A stretch of DNA of 64,000 nucleotides from Isoetes taiwanensis. Its lineage: Eukaryota > Streptophyta > Lycopodiopsida > Isoetales > Isoetaceae. The translations under genes were made by a program, and so were the position numbers. The stretch lies in the NCBI GenBank assembly GCA_021234155.1, contig JAJEKV010000058.1:8804992-8868991 (forward strand). Direction: 5' to 3'. The notes beneath the pieces are model-generated. The model did no database searches, was not told the origin of the DNA, and was given only the letters and a program-made list of their open reading frames with translations. Of this stretch, positions 1-53,369 are shown piece after piece. How positions within the stretch are numbered: position 1 is the stretch's first letter; each line of letters opens with the position of its first letter.

Positions 1-16
1 ACTATTTACAAAATGT

Positions 17-1313
17 TCAAGGTCGTTCTCCCTTGATGCGACTAGCAAGATGCATATCTTGCCTCATAAGTGTTACTCGCTTCGCATGAACAGTGCAAGC
101 CGTCGAGTCCTCAAAATGTTGCACTATTTTCTGCTCCGCTGCTTCCTGTAGTGCCAGCAGCATTTCATCCGTGACCCTCATGTCAGTCTTGAAGTCCTGC
201 ATCACTTCTCTGACTAGACGGGCAAAGGGGGCACGGGGGATTAGGAGGCCGTAGCTGCGCTGAAAGTGTCTGATCTCTCTCAGTGCTCTTCTTTCGGTCT
301 CCTTCCTGCTGGGTTTCTTCTTAGCTGGTCTCTTAGGGGCCTTGGGCTTTGGGGGTGGCGGTCTTAGTGTCTGGCTCTTCGTTGGATGTCCGCTCTCGAT
401 GGTCCGTACTCTGTTCTCCTGATAGTAGGAGTTGTAAGCCTCCCACTCCTTCATGTATGCCTCGTGCTCCTTCATCTTTCGCTCATAGATTTTGACGGGG
501 TCCGTGACATAGGACTCTCGGGCAGGCCGGGGTTGCTTTTTCCTGTCCCACTTCGGATAAGGAGGGGGCTTCTGCACTTGGTCCTGTGGCTCCTGTTCGG
601 CCGCTACCTGCTCGGTTGTCACCTGCTCAGCTACCGGGGGTTTGGAAGAGCTTCCACCCTCGGTGTTGGGGATGTAGTCCTCATCAGAGGAGTCACCGGA
701 GGAGTTCGGTGGCTGGTCAGGGGGCCGTTCAGTAATCACAATCTTGGGGTTGGGCTTCTTTTTTTGTGGAACTTCCTTGAGTTTCCTTGGGCTCCCCACA
801 AATTTGCCTTTCTTCTGCTTGAGTTCCTCGGCCGCTTTCGCCTCCGCCTCTTCCCTCTTCCTCTTCCTGTTTTCCCTGCGACGCTGTTTTGTTTCATGCT
901 TTGCGATCCAGGCCGCGAGGTCTTCCTGTTCACTTGGCTCGAGCCTTGGCTCGCCCCGCTCTTGCTGCTCCTCCGCTTCTTTCTCGCGAATCCAGGCTTC
1001 GACTTGTTCGTCTATGGTCGGCTCTGGTGTCGGCAGTCTCTTCGCGAGCCTTGGTCCTTTGCTCTCGCTGTGCTCCCTCCTCTTCTTCCTCAACTATCTC
1101 CGTTCCTGCTTCTGAGTGCGCATCTTCTTCCCGGTCGGTCTGCTGGCCGATCTCCTCGTTCTGCTCATCTGCGATGCTCTCTTCGCTCGAAGATAGTCGA
1201 CCTCCCCTCGCGACGAGCCTCTCCCGAAGCATCTGCTGAATGAGATTGGCGTCGCTGGCGCTGGGGGTTTCGCCTGGACGGGCCTTCCTGGCAGTCTGCT
1301 TGGTCCGTGCCAT
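17..1313 (-). CDS. Histone H3-like protein with a long insert, first ORF of an LTR retrotransposon; frameshifted
   Basis: Read on the minus strand from ATG at 1313. The first ten residues ([10 protein letters not shown]) equal the start of a canonical H3 tail. An acidic stretch rich in Glu follows. The frame then shifts somewhere between 1093 and 930, where both frames are open, and the second frame runs to a stop at 17-19. It carries two AWI-containing charged segments, Lys/Pro-rich linkers, and in the last ~91 residues an H3 fold: [31 protein letters not shown] and RIKGERP are all visible in H3 order. Canonical H3 is about 135 residues; this would be about 435. Loop 1 is not lengthened, so it does not look like CENH3. 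A retroelement primer site and LTR lie directly upstream, placing it where gag is expected. Capture of H3 by the element is inference. The frameshift may be real decay, programmed, or a sequencing error. Confidence 0.7.
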
Positions 1314-1414
1314 GTTTGACAGTTCGACAATCGGATATCGGGCGCCAAAGATCGCCTTAGGGAGCTGGAGCAGGTTTCTAAGGCGGGAACGTACAAATGA
1401 GGGGGGTCTACATC

Positions 1415-1422
1415 TATTTATA
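1415..1422 (-). promoter_or_regulatory. TATA-box-like site upstream of the H3-like ORF
   Basis: The minus strand reads TATAAATA about 100 bases upstream of the H3-like ATG, inside the retroelement leader and outside its LTR. It could be an internal promoter. Without transcript data the match alone is weak. Confidence 0.35.
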
Positions 1423-1523
1423 GCTTGGGCAATTTTAGGTCAAAATTTAAGTTGCTTTATTTAACATGCCAAGGCATCTATTTACTTAAAACTTACACTT
1501 ATTTCAGACTTTTTCTAATTATT

Positions 1524-1592
1524 GGTCTCACAGGTAGCGCCCTGCTCAAAAACTAAATATTAGTTTTTAGACCAGGCGCTACGTGTGAGATC
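1524..1592. repeat. Leader hairpin 1
   Basis: An imperfect palindrome of about 69 bases with arms of about 30. The outer stem pairs TCTCACA with TGTGAGA, the middle pairs GTAGCGCC with GGCGCTAC, and the inner pairs AAAAACTAA with TTAGTTTTT around a 3-base loop. It lies between the primer site and the first ORF. Confidence 0.75.
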
Positions 1593-1715
1593 TTACACAT
1601 TTTTAAGAAATTTAAGTGATTTAAACATACTATTCTAACTAATTCTTACCTTGGAACTGGCCTTACTATATTACTTTTCTCAAATTCATCAAGTTTACTG
1701 TGTTCTTGGCTCGAT

Positions 1716-1782
1716 GTCTCACAGGTAGCACCCTGTTCAAAAACTAAAGTTCAGTTCTTTGACCAGGCGCGACGTGTGAGAC
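1716..1782. repeat. Leader hairpin 2, diverged copy of hairpin 1
   Basis: A second copy of the same foldback about 190 bases away. The outer stem GTCTCACA/TGTGAGAC is perfect and the AGGTAGC...CAGGCGC middle is kept with changes. Duplication in a retroelement leader suggests a packaging or dimerisation signal, a small-RNA precursor, or a small foldback transposon. Confidence 0.7.
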
Positions 1783-1974
1783 CATCTTGCCTGAGGGGGT
1801 TTTGGTTAATTCTTTTTAGTCTTATTATGTTCGAATTCACTTAACTGTTACTAGCTTGGCATAAACTACAAAAATGAGAAAAAAAATTTCCCACTTTTTG
1901 AGGTTCGAGGATCCTATCAAGTTAGTACTACTGGGAGCATGGTCAGTGCTTTGCTCTTGGTCTCCAAGAACATA

Positions 1975-1986
1975 GCTCTGATACCA
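1975..1986 (-). other. Primer binding site for initiator tRNA-Met
   Basis: The minus strand reads TGGTATCAGAGC, the usual plant LTR-retrotransposon site complementary to the 3' end of initiator tRNA-Met. It follows the LTR end after one base. It fixes the orientation: LTR to the right, internal region running left towards position 1. Confidence 0.85.
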
Positions 1987-1987
1987 T

Positions 1988-3494
1988 TGTGACGTCCCCT
2001 GCTCGTATACGATGCCCGCACCGTATACAAACAGGAGTTCATCCCCCGTACCAGCTCCACACCGATACAGGGCCCTCCACATATCACTGTGACCGTCTAG
2101 AGTCCACAGTGGGAAGAGTGAAGGGGTTATTTTACCCCGTCTCCCTCAGGGCCTACCTAGCTGCGGAAGCGTAAACATACATGTCAGTAACATAATATCA
2201 TATATCCACCTCGAAGGGTGGCACCTCAACATCTGCATAGACAAAGATCAGCACAATACAAAGGAAGTTCCTACCCAAGGCTCAGACTCCAGGGGATGAC
2301 TGACAAGCTTGGGTCTCCAGAGTTCATTGCAGACAGAATCATGACAATGGATTGGGCTGGCATAAGAACATGGCTTAGGATTGTCCACTCCATCCGCCCC
2401 TCCTGTGCACACTTTGCAGAGTAGGTTGGAAAGTGTTGGGACTGGTTGTAGAGCCCGGGTGCATAGCCAAAGGGGCTATTCCTGGGTTACATCTCCCCAG
2501 TCCCGATGGGGCAGGTAGGGATCGCTCCCTCCAGAGATCTACATGCTGGCCAAGGTGATTAGAGGGCCACTGCCCTTATTCGACTTAACCCACTGGAAGG
2601 TGAACACCACCCCACGGGTGTCGAGCCCATGCCTTACCCACACTCAGTGGCAAGCCATTAGACCTAGTCACTCTGGATCCCCCGGTAGGCCTTACACACC
2701 GAGAGGGATCGGTCAAGGGTCGAACACCGAACCTCATTCTAAGCGGCCTCGGCCCCTTCACCCACAACAGGGTGGGCTCCGTACCTACAGGCCGAAATCT
2801 AGTAATGCACTAAGAGGGACTAGCTAGGAGCATCATCTACTAAGCTTTAAGTCTCTACCCCCCCTTCCCAATACAATGAGTACACAGAATACATCCGTCC
2901 ATCATATGAACATAAGTAATAAGAACTAATCTAATACATAGAGTTAGGTTCTTTAGTTAGAGTCAATCTCAGGATCTGCTTGGCTACTAAGGGCGATTTA
3001 ATAGGCTAAATCTACTGGTTCGAAGGCTGGAATAAGGTTTAGGCTATTCAATCGACCAAATACCTGATCCCTGGTTCACTTCTCTTGATCCGAAGGCGTC
3101 CATGTCTCTGTTCTGCTTCGGGATGCGGTCGGAGGGATGATCGACAAGCCGGGCGCACGGGCGGATCGTGGGAGTTGGAATTGACTCCTCAGTAGCCTTG
3201 CTAATCGGAGCTCGGAAGGTCTGTGGGCGAAAAAGGGAATGTTAGGGTTTGGTGCCTTATGTAGGCTATCAGTTCGGTTTAGGGTTTCCATGACCCTTGG
3301 TCTACCTTTAATGGGTTAAAGGTCTAAAGGTGCGCGCATTGCTAAGTGTGCGCACCATTGCAAGTTGCCCCCTAGGGCGCCCTTGCTTGGTATTACCGCC
3401 GCCGCGCATTACCGCCGACCGATGGGCGGCGGTACGCTGGATTGGCAAGTGTACGGTATCGCCTTGAGACCGTATATCGTACTGGAACGTCACA
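1988..3494 (-). mobile_element. 5' LTR of the minus-strand LTR retrotransposon
   Basis: A 1,507-base segment begins TGTGACGT and ends ACGTCACA, giving an 8-bp terminal inverted repeat with the TG...CA ends expected of an LTR. One end adjoins the tRNA-Met primer site. The five bases outside the other end (CTGCC, 3495-3499) are the candidate target duplication; the partner would lie left of the window. No gene is supported inside; the short ORFs there are incidental. Superfamily cannot be assigned because pol is outside the window. Confidence 0.75.
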
Positions 3495-3715
3495 CTGCCC
3501 TTTCTTGGTGTTCTCTTCTTCTTCTCGTCTTCATCATCTCCCTCATCATCTTCCTGGCCTTTCAGAAGAACATATCTGCAGAGTTTCTCGAAGGTCTTCC
3601 ACTTATCGGAGGGGGCCCTGTTTCCTTTAGGACGCTGAGGACAACCCAATGCTTTCCACTGTTGTCGAGCGTGTATGATCTGGTCAGGATACGAGCTGCA
3701 TTCAGTAAATGTCAC
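3495..3715 (-). pseudogene. Unrecognised ORF fragment interrupted by the LTR
   Basis: On the minus strand an ORF from 3715 reads MTFTECSSYPDQ and runs through an acidic stretch (EDDEGDDEDE) followed by KKKRTPRK, then continues into the LTR, where it loses sense. It looks like the 5' part of a coding exon cut by the retrotransposon. I do not recognise the family. It lies beside sequence shared with the palindrome-rich region near 21.8 kb, so it may belong to the same transposon-like unit. Confidence 0.3.
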
Positions 3716-4491: not shown

Positions 4492-5723
4492 TTAGTACAA
4501 ACTTATCATTGGGTAAGGTCACATTCGTATTAAGACAGTAGAAACAATTAAACATTAGATCCTGCTGTCCTACATAAATAGCTAGACATTAAAACTCAAA
4601 TGAGAGGCCTGTGGTATAACTGTGAACAACAGCTAATCTAACTGCCAGCAAGTACTCATTGCATAACACCAAATAATTTTAAGGCAGAATACCTATAAGC
4701 ATATTCAATAATGTTTCGGTCTAAATCTCTTACTATGCAAATCTCAAAAACATAGTGCAGAGAGCAATGCATGTAAGTCAAATGCAGAGAAAGCAGATAA
4801 ACTTTACAACTCAATCTGCAATCCTCTTTCCCATCTGCAAATTAATGAATGCATGAAGATGAACAAGCTACACCAGCTAGGCCAGACTTATTACTAGGTC
4901 ATTTAAAACTCAGATGAGATGCCTATGTTATAACTGTAATCTACATCTTATCAAGCGACCAGCAAGGTTAAAAGGTCAACCATTAAATTCCTAAGGGATC
5001 TGATTGCTACACTTAAAGTTATCCAAGCACCCAGTCCCAAGTATGATGAAGCCAGCAAACATGCTTTGTGCTCATGATCCTAACAGAATATTATGCATTG
5101 AGTGACCCAAGCAATATGCCTTTTAGGACCTCTGTTCATGCTAACCCCATGGCCATGTAAATCTATTCCAACCCGGACATCAGCCAATAAATCATGGCAG
5201 TCATATTAGATTCCTAAGGTTTCAGAAATAATATCATACTAACACAAATCATAGATATTAAAATTAATATGCTTCTACACAAGCTTATTCCTGTCATAAT
5301 ACTGCAGATCTGCTCATTATTATGTCATTATAACTATTAAAACACAGGGATCCTATTCCTAAGTATGTAGCATACTGGGCCTAACATATCCCTTGTAGAT
5401 CTTATGTCTTAATTAAAGGAATCTCTATATGTAACCATCAGATCATAAATTAATCATAGAAACCTAGTGTTCATTAGATCCTTTCCCTGTATCTTCATTA
5501 AACTATGCCAGTAAATATCAAACACAATAATTACTGCAATTATACTAACAGCATGACGCCCATTATTAGGTGGGCAGAAAGAAATATGCATTTATACCCT
5601 ACATGGCCGGATCTAAGCCTGCTCTAGTAACCATATTATGTCTGATTTCAGCAATACTTTCGTCAAGAACTTGTAAAACAGGAGTTAAACTGCTGAAATA
5701 TACAATAAAACACATGCTAAAAC

Positions 5724-6020
5724 CTGAGTTGAAGGTCCGCTGCAGGCATTAACTCTTCCTTCATCAATTTGCTTCATATATCCAAGGACTTCATGCACTG
5801 GAGTTGCAGAATCACTGATAATTATTGGGGCAGGTACAATTGTTGAATCCTCTTGGTCATTCTTCCTGCTCTCATTAGCCATTGTATCAGTAGCCCTTTC
5901 AGATCCAGAAGTGGTAAGCTTCTTGTGGAAATCAAATAATTTCCTCTTACTGCTAGCACTTTTCTTCTCCTCAGCTAATCTCTTCCTTGTAGCCATATTG
6001 AGGTCTCCTTTCTTCCTCAT
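5724..6020 (-). pseudogene. Leader exon of the old RT element
   Basis: The minus-strand exon begins MRKKGDLNMATRKR, nearly the same as the younger MTRKKGDLNMATRKR, and ends STQ just before a CAG|GTTTTA splice donor in the same phase as the younger copies. About 99 codons are open. The N-terminus is strongly basic, which suggests nucleic-acid binding or a nuclear localisation signal. No known domain is recognised. It belongs to the same transcription unit as the RT in complete copies. Confidence 0.5.
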
Positions 6021-6614
6021 CACTGAATTCAGGCAAAATAGTAAGAACAATAACCTACGCACGGGGTCGCCAGCCCCCTAATGTCGCTCATGAGGTTTTA
6101 GATCTGTTTATATGCAATGGATGAAGTACTACCGACTGTTCTTAAATTTAAGAACACCAAACTCACTACTGCTCCAGTAACCGGGCTAATATTGGTTTCA
6201 AGTACCTTTCCAGCTGTGCATGGATCTTGACTTGGCCTGAGCCATCCTCAGGCCGTGAGTTCGACAGGACTCCTCAGCGTGGTACTTCTTGTTAAGTATT
6301 TGTTCCAATCTTAACCCTAAAACGAGCCAATAAACGAAATATCAAAAATTATGGTTAAGGGTCAATAATAGTCCCCAAGGTAAATTATTTTTATGTGTTT
6401 ATATGTACACCACATCATGACCAAGCCATAACCTAAATCACTTGGGTTGTGTACACAAACATCTAGGCAACAATCATCATTAATAATAAAAAAACCTCCC
6501 TCCATCCGTAGGTCAGGTGGGCCATAACTGAGCAAACAACCAGTGGTAATTAATGCCCTGTAGAAAATATGTAGCAACAAGGTGAGCTGGACCTTGTTGC
6601 CAGGCCCAACCCAC

Positions 6615-7545
6615 CTATATTGCCTCTGTTTTCCATAATGTCATCAGCATTGTTGTCATATCATTAACATTATATAATGTTCCTGGGAAGTCATCATTCT
6701 TCAAAACCCCAAAAACATTCCTTTCAATGTCTCTTTTTGCAAATCCATTATAGCAAAACGCCATCATTAATTCCAGAATGTCCCTAGCAGCATTTTTAGC
6801 ACTTGAGTGTGCATAAACATATGGAAGAACTTGGGATATTATCACCTTTGAGGCTTGCCCATATGGTCTACAGCTCCAGGCTTTAATATATTTGCAAGGT
6901 TCAAAAGGTAGATTTGTTCTTTTATCATATCTGATGATCTCAAACAATCCCCTATCCTGATCTGTGACTTTGATGGTAATATTCAAAAAATTGCATTCAT
7001 ATCCAATGGGTAGACCTGTACCAGTATTTACCTTATATTTTGTCTCATCCTTAATCCCGAGATGTTCAAGATTGTAGATTGTAAGATGTGCCTGTTTATC
7101 CAGAAATTCCTGTACGTGGCCACCATTTATGATATTCAAGTCGTCTATATATCTGGCAGCATGTTGAAATCTCTGTATTTCTTTTATCTTTCCATTGTGA
7201 GCAAGCTGAAGGATAAATCTTAGCTCATACCATGCAAGGTACAAGTTGCACCAAGCAGGGCTGCACGCAAACCCCATTGGTATGCCTTTAATTTGCTTCC
7301 ACACACCTTTACCCATCTGTAAATAACAATGCGAGACAAGCCAGTTGTTCATATCCTTAACTTGCACTCTTGTAACAGGTTCCCAGCTTATATTTTCCTT
7401 ATCTAAATGTGATCTTACCCATTTGACCACATATTTCCCCTTTTTGTATTTAAACAGCAGCTCAAATAGATGTTTATCATCCCGCATAAAGTCCCATACT
7501 AAATCTGTAATATCATCCATAATTTCAAGGATACCATCCTGCCTA
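6615..7545 (-). pseudogene. Reverse transcriptase C-terminal half, old copy
   Basis: An open stretch of about 301 codons with RT motif B (GIPMGFACSPAWCNLYL) and motif C (ARYIDDLN, the catalytic Asp pair), then an NFLNITI motif resembling the FLD signature after motif C in Penelope-like RTs. Motif A and the N-terminal part are lost; similarity stops near 7,560 at the inverted junction fragment. No endonuclease domain follows the RT. Family placement is inference from motif layout. Confidence 0.65.
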
Positions 7546-7559
7546 CAAAGTGTGCATGT

Positions 7560-7618
7560 AGATCTGAATGACTAGATCTAAGAACTACATCTCTAGCTTT
7601 TTAAATTATGAGGGCTTT
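7560..7618 (-). repeat. Inverted fragment of the array junction
   Basis: These 59 bases are the reverse complement of the unit junction at about 14,093-14,151 (and 20,210-20,268), spanning both the end of a body and the start of a long repeat. They face the first array copy across a SINE. Penelope-like elements often carry inverted fragments at their edges. Confidence 0.75.
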
Positions 7619-9097: not shown

Positions 9098-11235
9098 TTA
9101 GTACAAACAAGGAGAGTAGGACCTTGTTGTACCACAAGGCCCTACCCATCCTATGCAACAATACTCTTGTTGAATAAAAGGTCTTTTAAGAATTTCAGCA
9201 TATCTTTTATCTTTGTAAAAGTATGGAAACATGTCGTTTTCTAGAGTGTATACAACTCCTCTAATGATATCATTCCATGCAAACCCATTATCACAGAAAG
9301 TGTTTATGAGATCATAAATATCTTTTGCCGCTTCCAGGGCATTGGAATGAGTATAAACAAAAGGTAGTATTTGAGAAATGATCACTTTTGAGGCTTGGGC
9401 ATAAGGTCTGCAGCTTTCTGCCATTATGTATTTGTGCACTTTGAAAGGCAGTTTGGTTCTCTTGTCAAATCTGGAAATGTTAAACATTCCCCTTTCCTGA
9501 TCCAATACTTGTATTGTAATGTTAAGGAAGTTGCATTCATACCCATAAGCATCATTTGAAGAACGATACTTAGTTTCATTTTTTACGCCAAGCAACTGCA
9601 AGTTATACACAGTAATCTCAGAATCTTTCGAGAAATACTGTAACAGATCTCCACCATTTGGGATGTTTAAGTCATCCATGTACCTAGCTGCATATTGGAA
9701 CTTGTAGATATCTGCAATCCTGCCAGCTTCAGAAAGTTTAAGCAGAAAAATGAGTTCATACCAAGCCAAGTACAAAGGTTGCACCAAAGGCTGGACCGCA
9801 GGAAAAAACCCATCGGAATCCCTTTAATCTGTTTCCAAATACTTTGTCCCATTTGTAAAAAACAATGAGACAAGAGCCAACTGTTCATGTCTTTGAAAGT
9901 ACACTTGTTCAAGTATTTCCAGCTAACATACTCCTTATCTTTAGAAGACCTGACCCATTTTGTCAAAACCTTATCATATTTGTGTTTAAATATAAGATCA
10001 AATTTGCCATTCTCCATCTGATGTTCCCATACTAGGTCAGCAATAATGTTTATTACTTCAATTATTCCATCATTACCGAACAATGGAATGGTCTCATAAC
10101 ATTTAGTTATGTCGGCTGAAAAGACATCATGGATCTTTAGAGGTAGGTTAAGAATTACATCATAGACTGAATTTACAATCCAGCAAGGATTTACCTTCTT
10201 CTGACCCCATATTTTCAACCTCGCTGTTTTTTTATGACAAATGGCAGGCCATATTTCCAGGCAACTATTTAGTACCGCTGTGATCATATCAGAAATTTCA
10301 GAAAATAGAGTCTTATTAGCATTAGTAATCCATCTGTACTCCTGTTTATGGGCTTTGTACATGGCCATGAGGTAAGGAAGCTTGAAGTTACATATCTGCC
10401 CAACCCCCATAAAGTTTGAAATCTGAGTCTCACATAGTTTATAAACTTCTTGAGGAAGCAAGCTTATTTTTTCAAAGTCATCTCCATTTAACCTTTCTAT
10501 AGCGGCCTCTGCTATGTGAAATGGGCATATAAAAGCAGCATTATTGGAGGCTTTGTCAACCTCAGCCACAAACAAATTGTGATTTAGCCATAACAAATTC
10601 TTTTTTACTTCTGGATCATCCCATAAGAATCTTTTTATCTTCAAGGAATTCTTAAAATGAGTAATCTCTCTGTGAGCCATTTGAGTTAACATGTTGAAGA
10701 TATTTCTCAAGTCTTCATCATTCAAATCTAATAAATCAAACCTGTGTACTGTTAAGAATTGATCACAGGCCCTGGAAAAGTCTTCCATAAATTCTTGAAT
10801 ACTTAAGCCCTGATCCGGGATGTGGTTGAGACCACACTTGAAGGCTTTTTTCAGCTTTGTACTGTGTATAATCTCCAAATCTGTTGTTCTAACATGCTTA
10901 ATCATGGGGTCAATGAACTTTGTCAAGTTTGGGTTTTTACACGGGCAGTGATTGGCAGCCCCCTCTGCAAAAACTTTGAAGGGTTTACATACTTTGTGTC
11001 TCACCTGATCAACATATTTCCAAGCAAACTTGGTATTATCAACAAGTTCTGTGCCTCTTTCCATTAATGTTTCAGACATAACAGTATAAAATATATTTTT
11101 TACTTTAAACTTGTCCAAAGCTTTAGAGAGAAATTTAAGGTGTACAATTCGGGTAACCTTTTGCTCTTTTTCTATGCTGAGATGTTTCTTCATGTTGATG
11201 TCTCTAACAATCAATCTGGTCTTGTCAGATTGGCC
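9098..11235 (-). pseudogene. Reverse transcriptase exon, array copy 1, frameshifted
   Basis: From the intron-2 acceptor (11235) the frame is open through the N-terminal part (CPCKNP and HVRTTDLEIIHS motifs), the AEVDKASNNAAF block, motif A (FSADITKCYETI) and most of motif B. Between about 9,775 and 9,815 three small insertions relative to copy 2 scramble the GFSCSPAWCNLYL region. The catalytic YMDDLN motif follows in another frame. The last residues also differ from copy 2 through a short local replacement. Non-functional as it stands. It retains the 44 bases missing from copy 2. Confidence 0.7.
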
Positions 11236-11566
11236 CTAAAAAACGGAACAAAGTCTGTTTTAATCAACCAAAATAAATGATGTACTTTATAAAAATTAGC
11301 AGGACACAAATACAAAAGGAAGTGTGCAACAAAAAATTGGGGAAAAGCATATATTTTGCAAAGCTTGGGATGCTTTTCAAATATTCCAAAACTGGTAGAG
11401 AGGAACCAGTACATATATATCTCTGTTTTTTGGTTCTAAGAACCAAGCCAAATGGCAAAAGTAAAGTTCTTATATTTGTTTTTATGACTCACTGCCTGCT
11501 TGGTAAAACATATACAAAAATCCAAGCAGGGTGGAATAACAAACTTTAGCACAAAGGTTTACTCAT

Positions 11567-13176
11567 CCAAATTAATATCAACCTTTTCTTGCTTTTTGAG
11601 GAAGTATTCATTTTCTGCAGTGCTTTTGTTTCCCCCTTTGGTAATGGAATACTCATCCAGATCTTTGTCACCATTGGCATTTATCACCATTGGCATTTAT
11701 CGTAGGAGTGATTGGCTGTACAGGATTGCTGCCATCATTATTTGGATCACATGTGATTCTAGGAGGAAATTTTGGAGTAATTTTCCTCATAGTACTAGCA
11801 GAGCTAGTCTTGGCAGAAACAGATTTAGAGCCAAAGGCAGGTTTAGATCCAGTACCTTGAAACTTCAAGAACTTGATTGGTTTGATCATTTTTTCCGAGA
11901 TGTCAGCCAACTTGTCATTTCCAAACAGTGGCTTTAAGCTTTTTTCAGGAGAATTGGCATAAGCAGGAGCCATTTCTAACATAATTTTCCTCACCTCCAA
12001 ATAGGACACAAAAGCCAAGACAACAGGTCGAAGAGTGCTGTTAATGCATTTAGTGAGAGCCACCATTTTGGCCAGAGGAGATAAACCTGGGTAAATAACA
12101 TCAAGATTGTTCAGGGCATACCAAATGGCATGATCGAACCAAACAATACCAGTCCTGCACTTTTCTTCTTTTTTCTTAATCAGCTTGAGATTCTTCTCAC
12201 ACCTGCAAGTAAAATATGGACAGTGTGTCCTCTATATCCTTTTAAGGTAATAGTCATTTCTTTCCATATTAGGGTAGGCCATATGTCCTTTTTGGCATAT
12301 TTGAATCCCATTATTCTTAGAACAAGGCATATCAAAGAAATCCATGTTAAAAGGAATGTCTCCAGTAATTTTGTCAAAATACTTCTCAAGCTTATGTGCC
12401 GCAGCTTTTGCTGCCTTGATTTCCTCCTTTGTAATACCAGCCAAAGCACACCAGGTGTCCTCATTAATAGGGGCCAGCGCACCGAAATTAAGACTCTTCC
12501 AAATAGCATGCTCATAAACAGGACTGTAACATTCAACAGACTGTTCTGTTATGACTGGGAAGCAAGTTGAGTTTGAAAGATTGAGGTTAGGAACACAGTC
12601 AAAATTTTCAAGGCTAGAATCCTCAACATTCTTCTCGGCAGGAATATCCATATCGAACCTTCTTTTTCCACATATTCCTCTTCTAAGAGGTCTTCTTCAA
12701 AAATAAACAATCGGGTGATCATCTTTGATTTTCATTTATAACAGTAATGTTGTCTTCTTGAAAGGAATTGACAATACCGTTTGCATCTTCCAAAGCAGTT
12801 AGAGTATCCATAAAAACTTTGGCCCAGGAATCTTCTAAGACCGTTCTTTGAAAAAATATTGAGCTAGCATCTTTATAAACTCTGTCAATAATTTCCTTGC
12901 TTTTTGTGAACTGGAAATTTACTTTCTTCATTTGTTGGAATAGCCTAAACATCCATTGAAACCAAGGAAAGTAACCAAAGACTTGCTTTTGTCAGTAAGA
13001 TTTACCTCTTTAAAAGTAATTAAAGAGTGAATTTCCTTGTTCTTGATGCACGCTAAGATGGTTTGGACTGCAAAGCTTGGGCAATCTATCTTGCAATCAT
13101 TATATTTGAGTGAAATCAGCTCTTTAATCCATTGAAGGCTTGGATCCAAGTCACCTGGTCCAGTGTTTGTCAAATC
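11567..13176 (-). pseudogene. Central ORF of the RT element, copy 1, broken
   Basis: Homologous to the intact 527-codon exon at 17,713-19,293. It carries frame breaks near 12,950 and 12,660 and a 16-base direct duplication (CACCATTGGCATTTAT) near 11,680. The splice acceptor TTTTAG|GATTTG is intact. No known domain is recognised. Confidence 0.65.
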
Positions 13177-15341: not shown

Positions 15342-17379
15342 CTATGCAACAATACTCTTGTTGAATAAAAGGTCTTTTAAGAATTTTAGCATATCTTTTA
15401 TACTGTAAAGTATGCCCGGAAACATGTCGTTTTCTAGAGTGTATACAACTCCTCTAATGATATCATTCCATGCAAACCCATTATCACAGAAAGTGTTTAT
15501 GAGATCATAAATATCTTTTGCCGCTTCCAGAGCATTGGAATGAGTATAAACAAAAGGTAGTATTTGAGAAATGATCACTTTTGAGGCTTGGGCATAAGGT
15601 CTGCAACTTTCTGCCATTATGTATTTGTGCACTTTGAAAGGCAGTTTGGTTCTCTTGTCAAATCTGGAAATGTTAAACATTCCCCTTTCCTGATCCAATA
15701 CTTGTATTGTAATGTTAAGGAAGTTGCATTCATACCCATAAGCATCATTTGAAGAACGATACTTAGTTTCATTTTTTATGCCAAGCAACTGCAAGTTATA
15801 CACAGTAATCTCAGAATCTTTCGAGAAATACTGTAACAGATCTCCACCATTTGGGATGTTTAAGTCATCCATGTACCTAGCTGCATATTGGAACTTGTAG
15901 ATATCTGCAATCCTGCCAGCTTCAGAAAGTTTAAGCAGAAAAATGAGTTCATACCAAGCCAAGTACAGGTTGCACCAAGCTGGACTGCAAGAAAAACCCA
16001 TCGGAATCCCTTTAATCTGTTTCCAAATACTTTGTCCCATTTGTAAAAAACAATGAGACAAGAGCCAACTGTTCATGTCTTTGAAAGTACACTTGTTCAA
16101 GTATTTCCAGCTAACATACTCCTTATCTTTAGAAGACCTGACCCATTTTGTCAAAACCTTATCATATTTGTGTTTAAATATAAGATCAAATTTGCCATTC
16201 TCCATCTGATGTTCCCATACTAGGTCAGCAATAATGTTTATTACTTCAATTATTCCATCATTACCGAACAATGGAATGGTCTCATAACATTTAGTTATGT
16301 CGGCTGAAAAGACATCATGGATCTTTAGAGGTAGGTTAAGAATTACATCATAGACTGAATTTACAATCCAGCAAGGATTTACCTTCTTCTGACCCCATAT
16401 TTTCAACCTCGCTGTTTTTTTATGACAACATATCAGAAATTTCAGAAAATAGAGTCTTATTAGCATTAGTAATCCATCTGTACTCCTGTTTATGGGCTTT
16501 GTACATGGCCATGAGGTAAGGAAGCTTGAAGTTACATATCTGCCCAACCCCCATAAAGTTTGAAATCTGAGTCTCACATAGTTTATAAACTTCTTGAGGA
16601 AGCAAGCTTATTTTTTCAAAGTCATCTCCATTTAACCTTTCTATAGCGGCCTCTGCTATGTGAAATGGGCATATAAAAGCAGCATTATTGGAGGCTTTGT
16701 CAACCTCAGCCACAAACAAATTGTGATTTAGCCATAACAAATTCTTTTTTACTTCTGGATCATCCCATAAGAATCTTTTTATCTTCAAGGAATTCTTAAA
16801 ATGAGTAATCTCTCTGTGAGCCATTTGAGTTAACATGTTGAAGATATTTCTCAAGTCTTCATCATTCAAATCTAATAAATCAAACCTGTGTACTGTTAAG
16901 AATTGATCACAGGCCCTGGAAAAGTCTTCCATAAATTCTTGAATACTTAAGCCCTGATCCGGGATGTGGTTGAGACCACACTTGAAGGCTTTTTTCAGCT
17001 TTGTACTGTGTATAATCTCCAAATCTGTTGTTCTAACATGCTTAATCATGGGGTCAATGAACTTTGTCATGTTTGGGTTTTTACACGGGCAGTGATTGGC
17101 AGCCCCCTCTGCAAAAACTTTGAAGGGTTTACATACTTTGTGTCTCACCTGATCAACATATTTCCAAGCAAACTTGGTATTATCAACAAGTTCTGTGCCT
17201 CTTTCCATTAATGTTTCAGACATAACAGTATAAAATATATTTTTTACTTTAAACTTGTCCAAAGCTTTAGAGAGAAATTTAAGGTGTACAATTCGGGTAA
17301 CCTTTTGCTCTTTTTCTATGCTGAGATGTTTCTTCATGTTGATGTCTCTAACAATCAATCTGGTCTTGTCAGATTGGCC
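15342..17379 (-). pseudogene. Reverse transcriptase exon, array copy 2, with a 44-base deletion
   Basis: Exon 3 starts after a TTTTTTAG acceptor at 17379 in phase with a proposed exon-2 donor. Motif A (FSADITKCYETI), motif B (GIPMGFSCSPAWCNLYL), motif C (ARYMDDLN) and NFLNITI are all present and the C-terminus ends ...LLFNKSIVA. A 44-base deletion at about 16,427, relative to copy 1, shifts the frame between the N-terminal part and motif A. Adding 44 to the exon length gives exactly 694 codons including stop. So the intact element would encode about 693 residues here, and this copy is dead by one event. Confidence 0.7.
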
Positions 17380-17712
17380 CTAAAAAACAGAACAAAGTCT
17401 GTTTTAATCAACCAAAATAAATGATGTACTTTATAAAAATTAGCAGGACACAAATACAAAAGGAAGTGTGCAACAAAAAATTGGGGAAAAGCATATATTT
17501 TGCAAAGCTTGGGATGCTTTTCAAATATTCCAAAACTGGTAGAGAGGAACCAGTACATATATATCTCTATTTTTTGGTTCTAAGAACCAAGTAAAGTTCA
17601 TATATTTGTTTTTATGACTCACTGCCTGCTTGGTAAAACATATACAAAAATCCAAGCAGGGTGGAATAACAAACTTTAGCACAAAGGTTTACTCATCCAA
17701 ATTAATATCAAC

Positions 17713-19293
17713 CTTTTCTTGCTTTTTGAGGAAGTATTCATTTTCTGCAGTGCTTTTGTTTCCCCCTTTGGTAATGGAATACTCATCCAGATCTTTGTCA
17801 CCATTGGCATTTATCGTAGGAGTGATTGGCTGTACAGGATTGCTGCCATCATTATTTGGATCACATGTGATTCTAGGAGGAAATTTTGGAGTAATTTTCC
17901 TCATAGTACTAGCAGAGCTAGTCTTGGCAGAAACAGATTTAGAGCCAAAGGCAGGTTTAGATCCAGTACCTTGAAACTTCAAGAACTTGATTGGTTTGAT
18001 CATTTTTTCCGAGATGTCAGCCAACTTGTCATTTCCAAACAGTGGCTTTAAGCTTTTTTCAGGAGAATTGGCATAAGCAGGAGCCATTTCTAACATAATT
18101 TTCCTCACCTCCAAATAGGACACAAAAGCCAAGACAGCAGGTCGAAGAGTGCTGTTAATGCATTTAGTGAGAGCCACCATTTTGGCCAGAGGAGATAAAC
18201 CTGGGTAAATAACATCAAGATTGTTCAGGGCATACCAAATGGCATGATCGAACCAAACAATACCAGTCCTGCACTTTTCTTCTTTTTTCTTAATCAGCTT
18301 GAGATTCTTCTCACACCTGCAAGTAAAATATGGACAGTGTGTCCTCCATATCCTTTTAAGGTAATAGTCATTTCTTTCCATATTAGGGTAGGCCATATGT
18401 CCTTTTTGGCATATTTGAATCCCATTATTCTTAGAACAAGGCATATCAAAGAAATCCATGTCAAAAGGAATGTCTCCAGTAATTTTGTCAAAATACTTCT
18501 CAAGCTTATGTGCCGCAGCTTTTGCTGCCTTGATTTCCTCCTTTGTAATACCAGCCAAAGCACACCAGGTGTCCTCATTAATAGGGGCCAGCGCACCGAA
18601 ATTAAGACTCTTCCAAATAGCATGCTCATAAACAGGACTGTAACATTCAACAGACTGTTCTGTTATGACTGGGAAGCAAGTTGAGTTTGAAAGATTGAGG
18701 TTAGGAACACAGTCAAAATTTTCAAGGCTAGAATCCTCAACATTCTTCTCGGCAGGAATATCCATATCTGAACCTTCTTTTTCCACATATTCCTCTTCTA
18801 AGAGGTCTTCTTCAGAAAATAAACAATCAGGCCGATCATGCTGATTTTCATTTATAACAGTAATGTTGTCTTCTTGAAAGGAATTGACAATACCGTTTGC
18901 ATCTTCCAAAGCAGTTAGAGTATCCATAAAAACTTTGGCCCAGGAATCTTCTAAGACCGTTCTTTGAAACAATATTGAGCTAGCATCTTTATAAACTCTG
19001 TCAATAATTTCCTTGCTTTTTGTGAACTGGAAATTTACTTTCTTCATTTGTTGGAATAGCCTAAACCATCCATTGAAACCAAGGAAAGTAACCAAAGACT
19101 TGCTTTTGTCAGTAAGATTTACCTCTTTAAAAGTAATTAAAGAGTGAATTTCCTTGTTCTTGATGCACGCTAAGATGGTTTGGACTGCAAAGCTTGGGCA
19201 ATCTATCTTGCAATCATTATATTTGAGTGAAATCAGCTCTTTAATCCATTGAAGGCTTGGATCCAAGTCACCTGGTCCAGTGTTTGTCAAATC
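17713..19293 (-). CDS. Central protein exon of the RT element, copy 2, intact
   Basis: An open exon of 527 codons between a TTTTAG|GATTTG acceptor and an AAG|GTTGAT donor; without splicing it stops seven codons later. Both junctions are in phase 0, joining ...LQVHQ to DLTNTGPGDLDP upstream and ...KKQEK to GQSDKTRL downstream. The protein has an acidic middle (LLEEEYVEKE), several paired Cys (CSKN, CQKGH, CRCEKN) that could bind zinc, and a Ser/Thr/Pro-rich C-terminus. I do not recognise the family. Its position before the RT suggests a nucleic-acid-binding, gag-like role; this is inference. Confidence 0.6.
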
Positions 19294-35770: not shown

Positions 35771-38700
35771 TCAAGTAAAAACAAAAGATTCAACAATTCC
35801 AAGAGCTGCTTTGCACATCTCTTGTTTCTGAAGTCCTAATGCTTTGGTGAAGATGTCAGCAACCATTGCTGACGTTGGACAATATTTAAGCACAATAGTC
35901 TTCTTTCGTACTTCCAATTTGATATAATGATAATGTAGCTCAATATGTTTAGATTTAGAATGAAAAACCTCATCCTTTGTTAATGCAATTGTACTTTGAT
36001 TATCACACATGAGTAGAGTAGGCCCCACCTGAGTTCGATGGAGACAATCCATCAACCGTCGCAACCAAACCAATTCTCTACTGGCAATTGATGCAGCAAC
36101 ATACTCTGCTTCCGTAGTGGAAACAGAAACACATCGTTGCTTTTTGCTCATCCAAGAAACTAAGGATTTCCCAACAAAAAAACAACTCCCACTAGTAGAA
36201 CGAAAAGTATCAGGACAACCACCCCAATCAGCATCTGTATAGCCTAGCAAAGTCAATATATCAACATCATTCTGCTTTGTGTACAATAAACCACAAGTAG
36301 AAGTGCCTTTCAAGTATCTCAAAACCCTTTTAGCAGCAATCCAATGAACCTGTCCAGGATTAGTCATGAATTGACCAAGAGTATTAGCAGCATAACTAAT
36401 ATCAGGGCGAGTGGCATTGGCCAAATACATCAATGCACCAACCAAACTAGCATAAGGACATTTTTTCATTTGCAATCTTTCTTCATCAGTGCAAGGACTT
36501 TGTTTTTGAGAAAGTTTGGAGTATCTGGAACTAACAACAAGAGGAGTACTTTGTGATTTTGCTTCAAGGAGGCCAAACTTTTCAATGAGTGCAGAGATGT
36601 ATGTGGATTGTGAAAGATGTAACAAACCCTTTGATCTGTCACGTTGCACTTGAATACCCAAACATGAGTGAATTTCACCCAAGTCAACTGTCTCAAAGGC
36701 TGCAGATAATAGAGCTTTCACTTTATGTAAGTATGGCAAATCATTGCAAACAAATATCGTATCATCAACATATAGAGCAATGAAAACATAAGAGGACCCT
36801 TCTTGCTTGAAGTAAATGTTCAAATCAGCCACACTAGGAAGGAATCCAGCAGAAAGCAAGAAGGTGTTAATCTTTATGAACCATGCCCGGGAAGCTTGCT
36901 TCAAACCATAAAGAGCTTTTCTCAATCTACACACCAAGTGTTCTCAAACCCAGCAGGTTGTACCATGTAAATCTCTTCACTCAAATCCCCATTCAAGAAG
37001 GCTGTCTTTACATCCATTTGATGTATATGAAGATCATGTTGCACTGCAAAGGCTAACAACACTCGCAAACTTGTAAGACGTACAACTGGAGAAAAGGTTT
37101 CCTCATAATCTACACCTTCAACTTGTGAGAAACCTTTGACAACAAGGCGAGCTTTGAATTTATCAAAAGAACCATCAGCTTTAACCTTGGTCTTAAAAAT
37201 CCACTTACATTGAATGGGCTTTCGTGCTGCAGGTAATTCCACAAGTTCCCATGTATCTTTATTGATCAAGGATTCATATTCACCCTCCATAGCCATTTTC
37301 CACGATTCTGCTTGATCTGAACTGAGAGCATCAGCAACAGAAATTGGATCAGCAGTCATAGCCAAAGTAGAATGATAATCTAAGATCCGTTGCATCGGCT
37401 TCCAAGCTCGACGTGCAACAATAGCATCATCATGAGGAACCTCATGAACAACTTCATCATCATGAGCACCCTCATGAATAACTTCATCAAGACCACTATG
37501 ATCTTTCTCATCATAATCACCATCATTAGCAAAATCATAAGCAAGTTCAGGGATATCAAGAGCTTCAGCAGGATAAAAAATCGGATTATGTTCATCAAGG
37601 ATAGCAGGGGCAATGAGAGGAGTAGTAGAAGGCGGCATAGGAACATCAGTAAAAATATCATCATCTGAAAAAGGGAATTCAACAAGTATTTCACTTTTAT
37701 GTTGACTATTAGGTTGAAAGCGTAACATAGAAAGCTCATCAAAAGTAGCATCACGGCTAATGATAACTTTTTGAGAAACAGGATCCCAAAAACGATATGC
37801 TTTAGCATTAGAAGCATATCCAAGGAAAATAGCTTTCATAGCAACAGGATCAATCTTTTTTCTTTTTTCAGTTGGAATATGAACATAAGCAGTACAACTA
37901 AAAACACGCAAGTTAGCAACATTGGGTTTACGACCAAACCAGGCTTCAAACGGAGTTTTGCCTTTCAGAGCAGAAGTAATCAAGCGATTTTGCACATACA
38001 CAGCAGTGGCAACAGCTTCTGCCCAAAAACACTTATCCAAACCAGAATGAATAAGCATACAACGCACAGCATTCATGATTGTGCGATTCTTCCTTTCAGC
38101 AACACCATTCTGTTGTGGAGAATAAGGCGCCGTGTATTCATGAAAAATACCTAAATCTGCACAAACTTTGTCAAAAGCCAAAGATTTAAACTCACCACCA
38201 TTATCAGTTCGCAATCTTTGAATCATGGTTCCAGTTTGAACCTCAACCAATTTCTTAAAGGTACAAAAGATGGATAGGACATCAGATTTTTTGGAAAGAA
38301 AGTACACGAAGGTATAGCGAGTATAATCATCAATGAAGAGAAGAAAGTATAGGGCTTTACCAATGGAAACACAAAATGGGCCACAAAGATCAGAATGCAC
38401 AAGTTCTAAGAAACGCGAGGTAGGATGTCCATCTCCAGAGAATGGATGGCGATGCTGCTTGCCAAGAGCACAAGCCTCACAAACACCCAATACACCATGT
38501 GTTGACAAATTGAGTCCATCCACAAGTTCATCACAGCTCATGTCCAAAAGATAGCATGACCAAAGCGTCGATGCCACAAAGTACTGATATCATCACCACG
38601 AGATATCACAACATTAGCAAACTCATCATTCAGTTGAAGAGCATAAAGATTGCCTTGGCGAAAAGCAGTGGCAAAAACAAGACCATCTTTCACAAAATGG

Positions 38701-39936
38701 CAAGCACGGTTATCAAACTGAACAAGGAAGCCAATATCAGTAAGACGAGCAAGAGAAAGGAGATTGTGGTAAAGGTCCGGCACATGTAGAACCCCATGCA
38801 AAAGCCGCACACCAGAAGATGTGCCAATTTGAAGAGTACCAATGCCTTTGACAGCAAGGGGTCTATTGTCACCAAGATAGACAACTTTCTTAGCAAGAAG
38901 AGGGCGATATTGAGTCAACCAATGCTTGTGATGAGTCATGTGTTGAGTAGCAGCAGAATCTACAAGCATAGAATCATTAGCTTTAATCATTTCAAGCGCA
39001 TCATGGACACAATGTCCCTCATCTCGCATGCCAAGAAGAAGTTTATGCTCAGTAGCAAATTTTTTATAATAACATTCTTCTTCAGGATGGCCAGACTTTT
39101 TACAATATTCGCAAACAATAGAGCGATTTCTTTTGGGAGGAGGACCACGACCATAGCCACGGCCACGGCCGCGTCCACGCCCACGACCAGAACGACCAGC
39201 ATGCTCATCAGCATACTTATCCTGATCATCATCACGAGATCGCTTAGAACGAACCACAAGAGCTGTTTCTGTCTGATCTTTGGAATATTTTTGAAGTTTG
39301 GTAGCTTCATATTTCAATGAAATATGAACACGATCTAAAGTGAAGTTGGCTTTATTGAGTAAAACTGTACGAACAACCTTGAATTCTTCTGGCAAAGAGA
39401 AGCGCAACAATTTGTTGTTGAGGTGGCATGACCTCACCAGCAATAGACAAGCCATCTACAAGAGTTTTCAACTTATCAAAGTGAAGGTCAAAAGATTCTG
39501 TGAGGCTATAACGAAGATTTGCAATATCATTGCGAAGACTATAAATCTCATATACAGTCTTTTGCTCATAAACTTTGTCAAGGTAACTCCAAACCTCAGC
39601 AGAGGTTTTGAGATCCCTAACATCCATCAGTATAGATTCTTTGAGTGCATAAAGTATCAAAGAACGTGCCGCTTTATCTTTTTCTTCCCAGTCAGCTAAA
39701 AGCTTGAACCAAGTATCGTATTCAGTTCCACTGGTGGCAAGAACTCCAGCACTAGTCAATGGTTGTGTTGGAACACGGATTTTACCCGTGACGTAATAAA
39801 AAAGCTTATCGCTTTCCAATACCAACTCCATCTTAAGCTTCCAAACAGGGAAGCCAGATCCAGAAAAAACATAAAGTGTCTTTGTCCCAGAGAGCCCGCG
39901 AAAAGTAACAACAGAAGAACTTGGCTCTGATACCAT
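35771..39936 (-). pseudogene. Copia gag-pol polyprotein with at least three frameshifts
   Basis: The start ATG (39936) is formed by the last LTR base and the first bases of the primer site. Gag is followed by a zinc knuckle (CEYCKKSGHPEEECY), a protease site (LVDSAATQHM), the integrase with HRRFGH and CEACALGKQH, RTDNGGEF and a core with SPQQNGVAERKN, the RT with ALYVDDTIF, and RNase H with YTDADWGGC and a STTEAEYVA motif. Frame breaks occur near 39,400 (in gag), 38,545 (just after HRRFGHA) and 36,940 (in RT, before LRKALYGLKQ). Each is a one-base change. The stop is near 35,771. Dead as read, or affected by sequencing error. Confidence 0.9.
39922..39935 (-). other. Copia primer binding site
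   Basis: The minus strand reads TGGTATCAGAGCC directly after the LTR end, complementary to initiator tRNA-Met. Confidence 0.9.
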
Positions 39937-40132
39937 GTTAGAAATATGAGACACACACAACTTTTCCCACAAGACAAGACCAAATTTTATTCATATGAGA
40001 TACATATTTATACATCAATATGAGCCACTATTAGACTAGTGCCACAATAGGCAAGAGTGCTATATGTGACACACGTGCCATACATGACAAAAGGTAAAGG
40101 TGCACGTCTCCTATAAAAAGGAGATCCAAACA
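39936..40132 (-). repeat. Copia 5' LTR
   Basis: Near-identical to 35419-35616; adjoins the primer site. Confidence 0.95.
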
Positions 40133-51566: not shown

Positions 51567-53366
51567 ATGGCTTCTTCAATTCCTTTGCAGCAGCTAGGGG
51601 ACTTTTCTATGGTGGGTATTAATCCCTTTGATCGGCCAAATCCGTCAAGGCCTGCTCGTCACCCCTTGAAGTCTCCCAGATCCACGAACAAAGATAACGG
51701 TTACAAAGGTGATGTGACTCGATCTCTCAATAAAGATGCTCATCTTAAACAACAGACATTAAATAGGGCATTGCATCTTTCCTCTCAACGGGATAAGCGT
51801 TGTCCATCGCAAATTTCCACAGATGTTGGTGGAGCAAATGGATATGCGTTGGATGTTCAACACATGATGATGGAGAGCGGATTGCATCCGTTACAGCTGT
51901 TGGCAGTGCAACTGGTCTAGACAAACCTCCAACACGCGTTGGAGGTTCACCACATGGTGCTGATGGGGAGCAGATTGCATCTGCTATAGGTGTTGGAAGT
52001 GCATATCGCTCAGCCAGACCTCCAACATGTGTTCAACTCAGGATGATGAAAGGGAGCGGATTGTTGAGGCATTGACCCCAGATGATTTCTCCAAGGTCCC
52101 TCGTCCAGCACGTCTTCCTCTCTATGTCAATTTGCTTCAAAAAGACCTAGAGAACAAGTTTGACATTCTTACAGCTACTTTGCACATGCAGCAACAAGAG
52201 ATGACACAATTTCGATGTGCATTGAGGTCTGAATTGGCAAAGTGTCGTAACGACCTTGCAACGCTCACTGGCAAAATTCATGCTGAACATGCAAAGCTTT
52301 GGGAAGCAATTGAGGGCGCAAAGTTGGAGTTTGCTGCTTGTCATATGACTGTGGAGCACCTAATGGTTGATATTGGCAAGCAAAGACAAGATTTACTCCG
52401 CCATGTCTCTGAGGTGCCTACGAGTTGTAATACTCGCATGCGAGCATTGGAAGAAAGCATGACCTGCCAAGTGACTGAGCTTGCTAAGGACACATCTAGT
52501 CGAGTTGCTGCCTTGGAACGTTCCTATTCTCGTGCAACCAAGGCACCTCCAACTTCTTCTTCAACGCATCATGATCCTAATGTGAGATCCATGCTTAGTT
52601 CATCCTCCCCCCAATTTCAAAACTCTCATGTAACAGGTTTTGCATCTACAACTGCATCTACATCTGCTCAAAGGCGTAGAGAATACATTGATAGGCACAA
52701 CCGTCAGTGTAATATGGTAATTCGTGGCATGCCAGAAGAAGCATCAGAGGACTTGCAACAGAAGGTACAGACTTTGGTGTTAGCTAAATTGGACTTCACA
52801 ACACCAGTTGTTGTCACTGTTGCACATAGGGTTGGAGCATTGCAGCCCCACCACCCGCACATAGTGAAATTTACAGTGCGAAATTTGAGTACTAAAATGG
52901 ATATCCTCAAGCAGGCCAAGCAATTGAAAGGGACATCTCTCTATCTGGATTTTGATCTTACTAAGTCCCAACAGTTAGCCAGATGCCAGAATTTGCAAAA
53001 GGTCCAGGACATTCAAAAGAATGGTGGTAAGGCTGCACTGATTCGTGGAAAAAACTACGTATTTTTACACCATCACATGCCACCTTTGCTGATGCCTTTC
53101 ATCATGCTAAGGCCACTCATACTGCTGGTGTTAAAGTCCATTCTCCCATTTCTCATGCACACACCAACGCTGCAAATGCGCCTCGTGTTGTTCCATCTTC
53201 TGCACCCACCACATCTTCTTCTGCGCAAGGTCATTCCTCTCACGATGTTGCTAATGGTACCCTTGATGCTGCTGCTGCTGATGTTGCTGCTTCTGCTGCC
53301 GTTGCCGCCTCTATTGCTCCAGCCTCCTCAGTTCGCACTGCTCATACCTCAAATGTACCTTCCTAG
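51567..53366 (+). pseudogene. LINE ORF1, L1 ORF1p-like RNA-binding protein, frameshifted
   Basis: ATG at 51567 (MASSIPLQQLGDFSMVG). Frame changes occur in the 51,850-52,040 repeat-like stretch and near 53,060. The middle part (LLQKDLENKFDILTATLHMQ onwards) has long heptad-rich helices with Leu/Ala spacing, a probable coiled coil. Then NMVIRGMPEEASEDLQQKV, VVVTVAHRVGAL and MDILKQAKQLKGTSLYLDF match the RRM plus C-terminal domain layout of L1 ORF1p. This type trimerises and binds element RNA. The C-terminal tail in the restored phase is Ala/Ser/His-rich. No CCHC knuckle, unlike most seed-plant LINE ORF1s. Confidence 0.7.
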
Positions 53367-53369
53367 GAA

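Follow-up and report, generated by a model that had tools for sequence, protein, structure and literature searches.

A putative histone H3-like gene carried by an LTR retrotransposon of the lycophyte Isoetes taiwanensis

The window analyzed here is a stretch of 64,000 nucleotides from Isoetes taiwanensis (assembly GCA_021234155.1, contig JAJEKV010000058.1, positions 8,804,992 to 8,868,991 of the forward strand). Positions 1–3494, read on the minus strand, are the 5′ portion of an LTR retrotransposon that continues leftward beyond the window. Read on this strand, the element comprises a 5′ LTR, a primer binding site, an H3-like ORF, a second ORF (ORF2), Gag, reverse transcriptase (RT), RNase H, integrase and a 3′ LTR, in that order. 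The whole copy is 12,976 bp (12.98 kb) long, computed from the LTR coordinates. Its features are as follows.

3495..3499, target-site duplication (TSD) of 5 bp, CTGCC on the plus strand and GGCAG beside the other LTR
1988..3494, minus strand, 5′ LTR of 1507 bp, from self-comparison of the flanked locus, with 94.6% identity between the LTRs
1975..1986, minus strand, primer binding site TGGTATCAGAGC, one base past the LTR
1716..1781, minus strand, leader hairpin 1, −29.9 kcal/mol folded as RNA
1525..1590, minus strand, leader hairpin 2, −36.9 kcal/mol folded as RNA
1414..1423, minus strand, TATA-box-like CTATAAATAG, 110 nt upstream of the ATG of the H3-like ORF
17..1313, minus strand, H3-like extra ORF, broken in this copy by one frame change near 1040
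1284..1313, minus strand, initiator methionine and H3 residues 1–9
20..319, minus strand, H3 fold (H3 residues ~36–135), the last 100 codons, from Pfam and a solved-chain match
Left of the window, C1065, oriented 5208-6731, ORF2 of 529 aa, stop to stop
Left of the window, C1065:8795510-8796994, 3′ LTR, worked out from self-comparison of the locus

The LTRs of this copy end in TGTGACG...CGTCACA and are of the TG..CA type; the primer site is presumably of the tRNA-Met type. Matching LTR ends and primer site had both been described in an earlier note on this DNA, and both are present. That note had assigned the ORF to an LTR retrotransposon, and had advised extending the locus leftward. The extension bears the assignment out: pol and the 3′ LTR are found there, with a GGCAG duplication that matches CTGCC, and the ORF occurs in other copies as well. 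In placing the ORF in the position of gag, on the other hand, the note was mistaken. Gag of the window copy (Pfam Retrotrans_gag, E = 2.6e-14) lies ~2.5 kb beyond the H3-like ORF, past ORF2; Gag being a separate ORF, the candidacy of the H3-like ORF for that role was rejected.

The pol domains were scored in a second copy, c1056 (RVT_1, 1.6e-40; RT_RNaseH, 9.1e-35; rve, 6.4e-10; SH3_Tf2-1, 1.7e-21), in which a C-terminal chromodomain follows (Pfam Chromo, E = 5.7e-10). The pol of the window copy matches that of c1056 by reading and by nucleotide match; the chromodomain score belongs to c1056 only. The protease and a CCHC knuckle were recognized by motif only, zf-CCHC falling under the Pfam cut-off, and ORF2 resembles no Pfam family significantly. 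By these sequence features the element is a complete Ty3/gypsy retrotransposon of the chromovirus type, and the H3-like ORF is an extra 5′ ORF between the primer site and gag. Among ten long loci compared, the primer site is exact in eight and an LTR pair is present in eight (amid other repeats in c941); the pair is weak in c1032, and none was seen in c147. A 5-bp TSD is readable in four of the seven loci inspected (the window copy, c1056, c1029 and c1103). The LTRs of the window copy have diverged by a K2P distance of 0.048, within a range of 0.020–0.107 for six copies, of which two have incomplete LTRs. In eight of the nine other copies the gag and pol segments are matched to those of the window copy, partly with low gag coverage. 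The one without a match in this segment-wise comparison is c1032 (L023/L024), which has an intact H3-like ORF and a weak LTR-like repeat pair (68%), and is perhaps a non-autonomous or rearranged relative.

Other elements share the window. Reverse-transcriptase-like ORFs, in two similar copies, lie on the minus strand at 6615-7571, 9101-12696 and 15345-19293; the first of them scores only 7.5e-5 with RVT_1, and IPMGFxCSPAWCNLYLAWYE and RYxDDLN motifs can be picked out by eye in these regions. A Ty1/copia-like region with integrase, RT and RNase H motifs, again seen by eye and in several frames, occupies 35774-39990 (minus), and 51964-57434 looks LINE-like, with ORFs that resemble endonuclease and RT, likewise by eye.

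The H3-like ORF is preceded by a distinctive arrangement, which we call a cassette: two 66-nt inverted repeats whose starts are 185–200 nt apart, then CTATAAATA(G). The cassette occurs upstream of the H3-like ORF, and again upstream of ORF2, in 10/10 loci (the ORF2 cassette of c1056 is without the G after CTATAAATA), and TATAAATAG is found upstream of the H3-like ORF in all ten. Where the ATG can be placed, the distance to it from the start of the TATA-like box is ~110–115 nt for the H3-like ORF and 122–123 nt for ORF2. Each element thus has four copies of a strong 66-nt hairpin, paired ahead of two ORFs, the second pair in the window copy lying left of the window. We infer that the cassettes may be internal promoters that yield separate mRNAs, a parallel case being the internal promoters of foamy viruses. 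In this copy TATA[AT]A is absent from both LTRs, the one at 1988-3494 included, although the internal cassettes have TATA-like boxes.

What the ORF appears to encode is a protein with an ARTKQTARK start, ~335 charged residues and a C-terminal H3 histone fold. The exact ten-residue H3 start that the earlier note reported is there, at 1284-1313 on the minus strand. The frame at 17-1093 gives a Pfam Histone match of E = 1.2e-28, and the closest solved chain is H3.3 (E = 2.8e-29), aligned without gaps over residues 1–99, in agreement with the note's C-terminal H3 fold. In the window copy, tail and fold are in different frames and the matched stretches switch frame near 1040, inside the interval (930-1093) for which a frameshift had been suspected. 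The charged insert, put at ~300 residues by the note, is ~335 residues long in the intact ORF of the copy L013. Of the canonical H3 tail (residues 1–35), residues 1–9 alone are retained; on our reading, basic stretches of the linker resemble nuclear signals. AlphaFold gives a low-confidence model (mean pLDDT 57), in which the fold too is weak.

Within the fold, the majority residue of eight intact copies is that of the H3.3 chain at 57 of 99 positions, and identity to the host H3 gene L052 is 54.7% over 106 residues. Four residues are missing from the fold of L021, and L023 has five extra at the fold end. Seven residues that we take to be of the H3–H3 four-helix contact type (C110, H113, A114, K115, R116, D123 and L126) are invariant in 8/8 intact copies compared. 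R42, T45 and R63, presumably DNA-contact residues of H3, are altered in all eight, so that a nucleosome containing the protein may be weak or fail to form. Compared with plant H3 and H3.3, then, the protein has the same ARTKQTARK start and a histone fold, and differs in having ~335 other residues in place of H3 10–35 and in these altered, presumed DNA contacts. CENH3 has a longer loop 1; the fold of the element protein aligns to canonical H3 without insertion.

A search of 1,658,258,908 bases in 1110 contigs scored 114 genome places as matches to the H3-like ORF, and in other copies it is open from ATG to stop. We read 36 copies (33 in a survey of the tail, plus L049–L051), after excluding L001, L003–L005, L007 and L008 as duplicates of places read from other loci. 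Ten of the 36 have a naturally intact ORF, of 420–456 aa: eight (L013, L021, L023, L025, L031, L039, L043 and L045) of 420–451 aa, and two that are more divergent, L049 (456 aa) and L050 (450 aa). L051 has an open frame without the tail start. Because the copies were drawn from the best-scoring matches, some chosen for an open frame, 10/36 is no genome-wide estimate. The tail start could be located in 27 of the 33 surveyed copies, and the ten residues are exact in 19. Where located, it has K4 in 27/27 copies and K9 in 26/27. Among the ten intact ORFs the start is exact in six; L049 has lost K9 (ARV instead of ARK), and L023 has lost R2.

Selection was gauged by pooled Nei–Gojobori dN/dS; the values are averages only, since element lineages and decayed copies are pooled. 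For the ten intact ORFs, pS is 0.513 and dN/dS is 0.169 overall. By region, dN/dS is 0.087 (residues 1–15), 0.256 (16–110), 0.221 (111–260), 0.115 (261–344) and 0.084 (fold), residues 16–260 being the faster-evolving part. For the eight-copy set dN/dS is 0.159 overall, with residues 261–344 as low as the tail start and fold, and differences at the three codon positions number 1384, 1195 and 3670. These patterns indicate that the intact ORFs are under purifying selection despite strong silent-site divergence. With broken copies included, as single matching stretches, dN/dS is 0.106 for the fold and 0.084 for residues 261–344 (32/32 copies each), and 0.354 for residues 1–40 (25/32), so tight constraint is confined to the very start of the tail. 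The ten long loci allow comparison with the rest of the element. The H3-like ORF gives 0.076 for the fold (10 copies), 0.100 for residues 261–344 (10) and 0.283 for residues 1–40 (9). Pol gives 0.185 for RT (8 copies), 0.224 for RNase H (7) and 0.287 for the integrase core (7), and other regions give 0.104 for Gag (7), 0.063 for the chromodomain (9) and 0.17–0.34 for ORF2 (9–10). The H3 fold is constrained at least as much as RT and the integrase core. By nucleotide identity to the window copy, few parts of the element change faster than the H3-like ORF (79–89% in nine copies, versus 85–96% for PR–RT in eight). Across 36 pairs of copies, the H3 distance is only weakly correlated with the RT distance (r = 0.20), which may reflect recombination or poor RT stretches. 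The ORF thus lies outside gag–pol, is common to many copies and is apparently selected, as befits an extra ORF of an LTR retrotransposon. As far as sequence can establish it, the ORF encodes a protein that resembles H3, begins with a genuine H3 tail start and is selected within the element.

The genome contains a second group of H3-bearing ORFs. A Pfam Histone search scored 150 places of 8705 candidates. Fifteen, at 164–165 bits, match nearly the whole Histone model, and the one read, L052, is a 136-aa H3. The other 135 score 144.5–154.7 bits; in 36 of them the frame is open for 400 aa or more, and all lie over 5 kb away from the 114 window-family places. Five were read (L053–L057). All are open and combine a different N-terminal domain with a partial tail and a near-canonical H3 fold that is 72–88% identical to host H3 in the best match (97–131 residues), an architecture distinct from the tail–linker–fold order of the window family. 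The ARTKQTARK start was not seen in these five, so a free tail is not required in every H3-bearing element. L053, L054 and L057 are mutually 69–84% identical; L055 and L056 share 91% identity, and 41–44% with those three where a long alignment is given (L055 and L057 align over 157 residues only, at 67%). Fold dN/dS is 0.074 for L057/L053, 0.064 for L057/L054 and 0.159 for the close pair L053/L054; against L055, silent divergence has reached saturation (pS ~0.85), with a fold pN of 0.12–0.13. A genome search with the first 332 residues of L054, its N-terminal part, scored 121 matching places among 4628 candidates, dispersed in the genome. A Ty3 RT and integrase sequence (L060) lies 4.6 kb downstream of the L056 ORF on the same strand, its RT 75.6% identical in amino acids to that of the window element over 213 residues, and from this one copy the second group may belong to the same retrotransposon clade. 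Downstream of L054 one stretch weakly resembles ORF2 (26%, E = 0.064), and no pol was found at L059, downstream of the same ORF; this copy may be interrupted. The hairpin, TATAAATA and the primer site of the window family were not found in the 2-kb pieces of L053–L057. A fold tree with low support and differing rates does not join the window family with the second group; the two may stem from one capture or from more.

Relatives elsewhere are few. In a search covering 5.8 billion proteins, the matches listed for the H3-like ORF (120 of 1389) cover 27–53% of the query, as expected from the fold, and include no full-length relative; tail and linker (residues 1–330) match no protein at E ≤ 0.001 (7977 candidates scored). 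ORF2 has one protein relative among 7993 candidates scored, P0121 (46% identity over 95%, on a 2007-base contig), and a related element is therefore probably present in another sampled organism. A search of viral contigs led nowhere. In the open-licence literature, searched mostly by titles and the starts of abstracts, we found no histone-encoding retrotransposon. The word ‘histone’ is absent from the text of a paper on plant elements with extra domains (PMC7264820). In the main text of a plant survey (PMC6317226) it occurs once, concerning chromodomains, the most prominent extra-ORF domains there being the plant mobile domain, Transposase_28 and Athila ORF-1. According to that survey and PMC3350952, plant chromoviruses, including Selaginella chromodomain elements, share with the Isoetes element a tRNA-Met-type primer site, a 5-bp TSD, a Gag ahead of RT–RH–INT and a C-terminal chromodomain. 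Unlike those surveyed there, the Isoetes element is 12.98 kb long and carries both the H3-like ORF and ORF2 as additions at its 5′ side. In orchids, Ty3/gypsy elements have likewise gained a host-type domain as an extra ORF, here resembling an m6A demethylase, and kept it; they differ in being Tat/Ogre relatives and in carrying a 2-ODD domain instead of a histone (PMC9289625).

How the ORF came to be there, and what it does, can be read in several ways. As the alternative, the earlier note had named a host gene, or a pseudogene, that adjoins an incomplete element, and to a chance neighbor of this kind we give practically no credence. The H3-like ORF, the cassettes and ORF2 stand in the same order in 10/10 loci and the pol segments of the window copy are matched in eight of nine others; once the locus was extended nothing favored this reading, which was rejected because the element arrangement recurs across loci. 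A functionless captured passenger would have a precedent in Dothideomycete hAT elements, which have captured and amplified H3-like sequence (PMC6710886). Those, unlike the window element—an LTR element with a Ty3 pol, and so not of the hAT type—are DNA transposons, for which that paper is not known to report a new H3 architecture; their copies are described there as mostly truncated and RIP-inactivated in Pseudocercospora, and as many potentially active in Pyrenophora. That 26 of the 36 copies read are not intact would suit a passenger. Purifying selection at high silent divergence, an arrangement kept in 10/10 loci and constraint at least equal to that on pol do not, and this very improbable reading was rejected on the dN/dS values, barring gene conversion as their sole source.

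Two functional alternatives deserve more weight. The protein might work with Gag, cDNA or integrase, as a DNA chaperone in the particle or as a bridge between integration complex and nucleosome. In favor of this, the same element encodes an integrase with a chromodomain (scored in c1056 at 5.7e-10) of dN/dS 0.063 in nine copies. Against it, the separate promoter-like cassette does not suit a simple polyprotein role, and the chromodomain, aligned by eye, keeps the W45 equivalent but lacks an aromatic where Y48 would be (KWKHL), with none evident at the first site either; on balance we think this role improbable. Type II chromodomains are likewise without such aromatics, their partner not being known (PMC6317226; cage residues according to PMC3350952). 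That the element's chromodomain reads the element's own H3K9 is a weak idea, the aromatic cage looking incomplete by eye. Somewhat less doubtful, and still unlikely, is a decoy or histone mimic that never becomes nucleosomal, whose ARTK start and fold would absorb host readers, writers or chaperones (H3K4 and H3K9 enzymes, ASF1-type chaperones), and silencing would thereby be eased for the element. Residues 1–15 and the fold have the lowest dN/dS in the ten intact copies (with 261–344 as low in the eight-copy set), K4 never varies where the start was located, and the presumed DNA contacts are altered. As precedents, PMC12937675 describes an influenza NS1 mimic of the H3 tail and a secreted Leishmania H3 that enters host chromatin. 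The NS1 mimic has a similarly short H3-tail-like sequence, to which the element protein adds a full fold, with a transposon as carrier. Yet K9 and R2 are not universal, and a pure decoy would not require the whole fold with a conserved H3 surface.

It is because the fold is retained as a whole that we rank incorporation into host nucleosomes first and the decoy second. From the conserved tail start and fold together, this accessory protein of H3-variant type probably works on the chromatin of its host in the manner of H3; incorporation as the route is a serious candidate to which we would give slightly less than an even chance. The H3-like ORF would be expressed from its own TATA-like cassette as a separate mRNA, and the protein would enter the nucleus, pair with host H4 via the conserved H3 surface and be placed into chromatin, on element copies or at target sites. 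The resulting nucleosomes would display the ARTK tail start without H3 10–35 (S10, K14, K18, K23 and K27), and host silencing of the element would be blunted or redirected.

The silencing of retrotransposons by their hosts depends largely on marks placed on histone H3. More broadly, and as a speculation that we consider rather unlikely in its entirety, a lycophyte chromovirus clade might run its own chromatin. Its H3 variants, built as two or more kinds of fusion, would replace host H3 on element DNA or at target sites, evading or redirecting silencing, and in the resulting arms race with the chromatin of the host the H3 ORF would be swapped between elements or captured anew. Apart from that speculation, a genomic parasite with a conserved and apparently self-promoted H3-like gene of its own would be directly attacking or exploiting the H3-mark layer. 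Nature would thereby have provided an experiment on the H3 tail residues that silencing requires, and uncommon histone variants could be drawn from such elements. The case also suggests that chromatin proteins can be found among the extra ORFs of plant retrotransposons, most of which have no known use.
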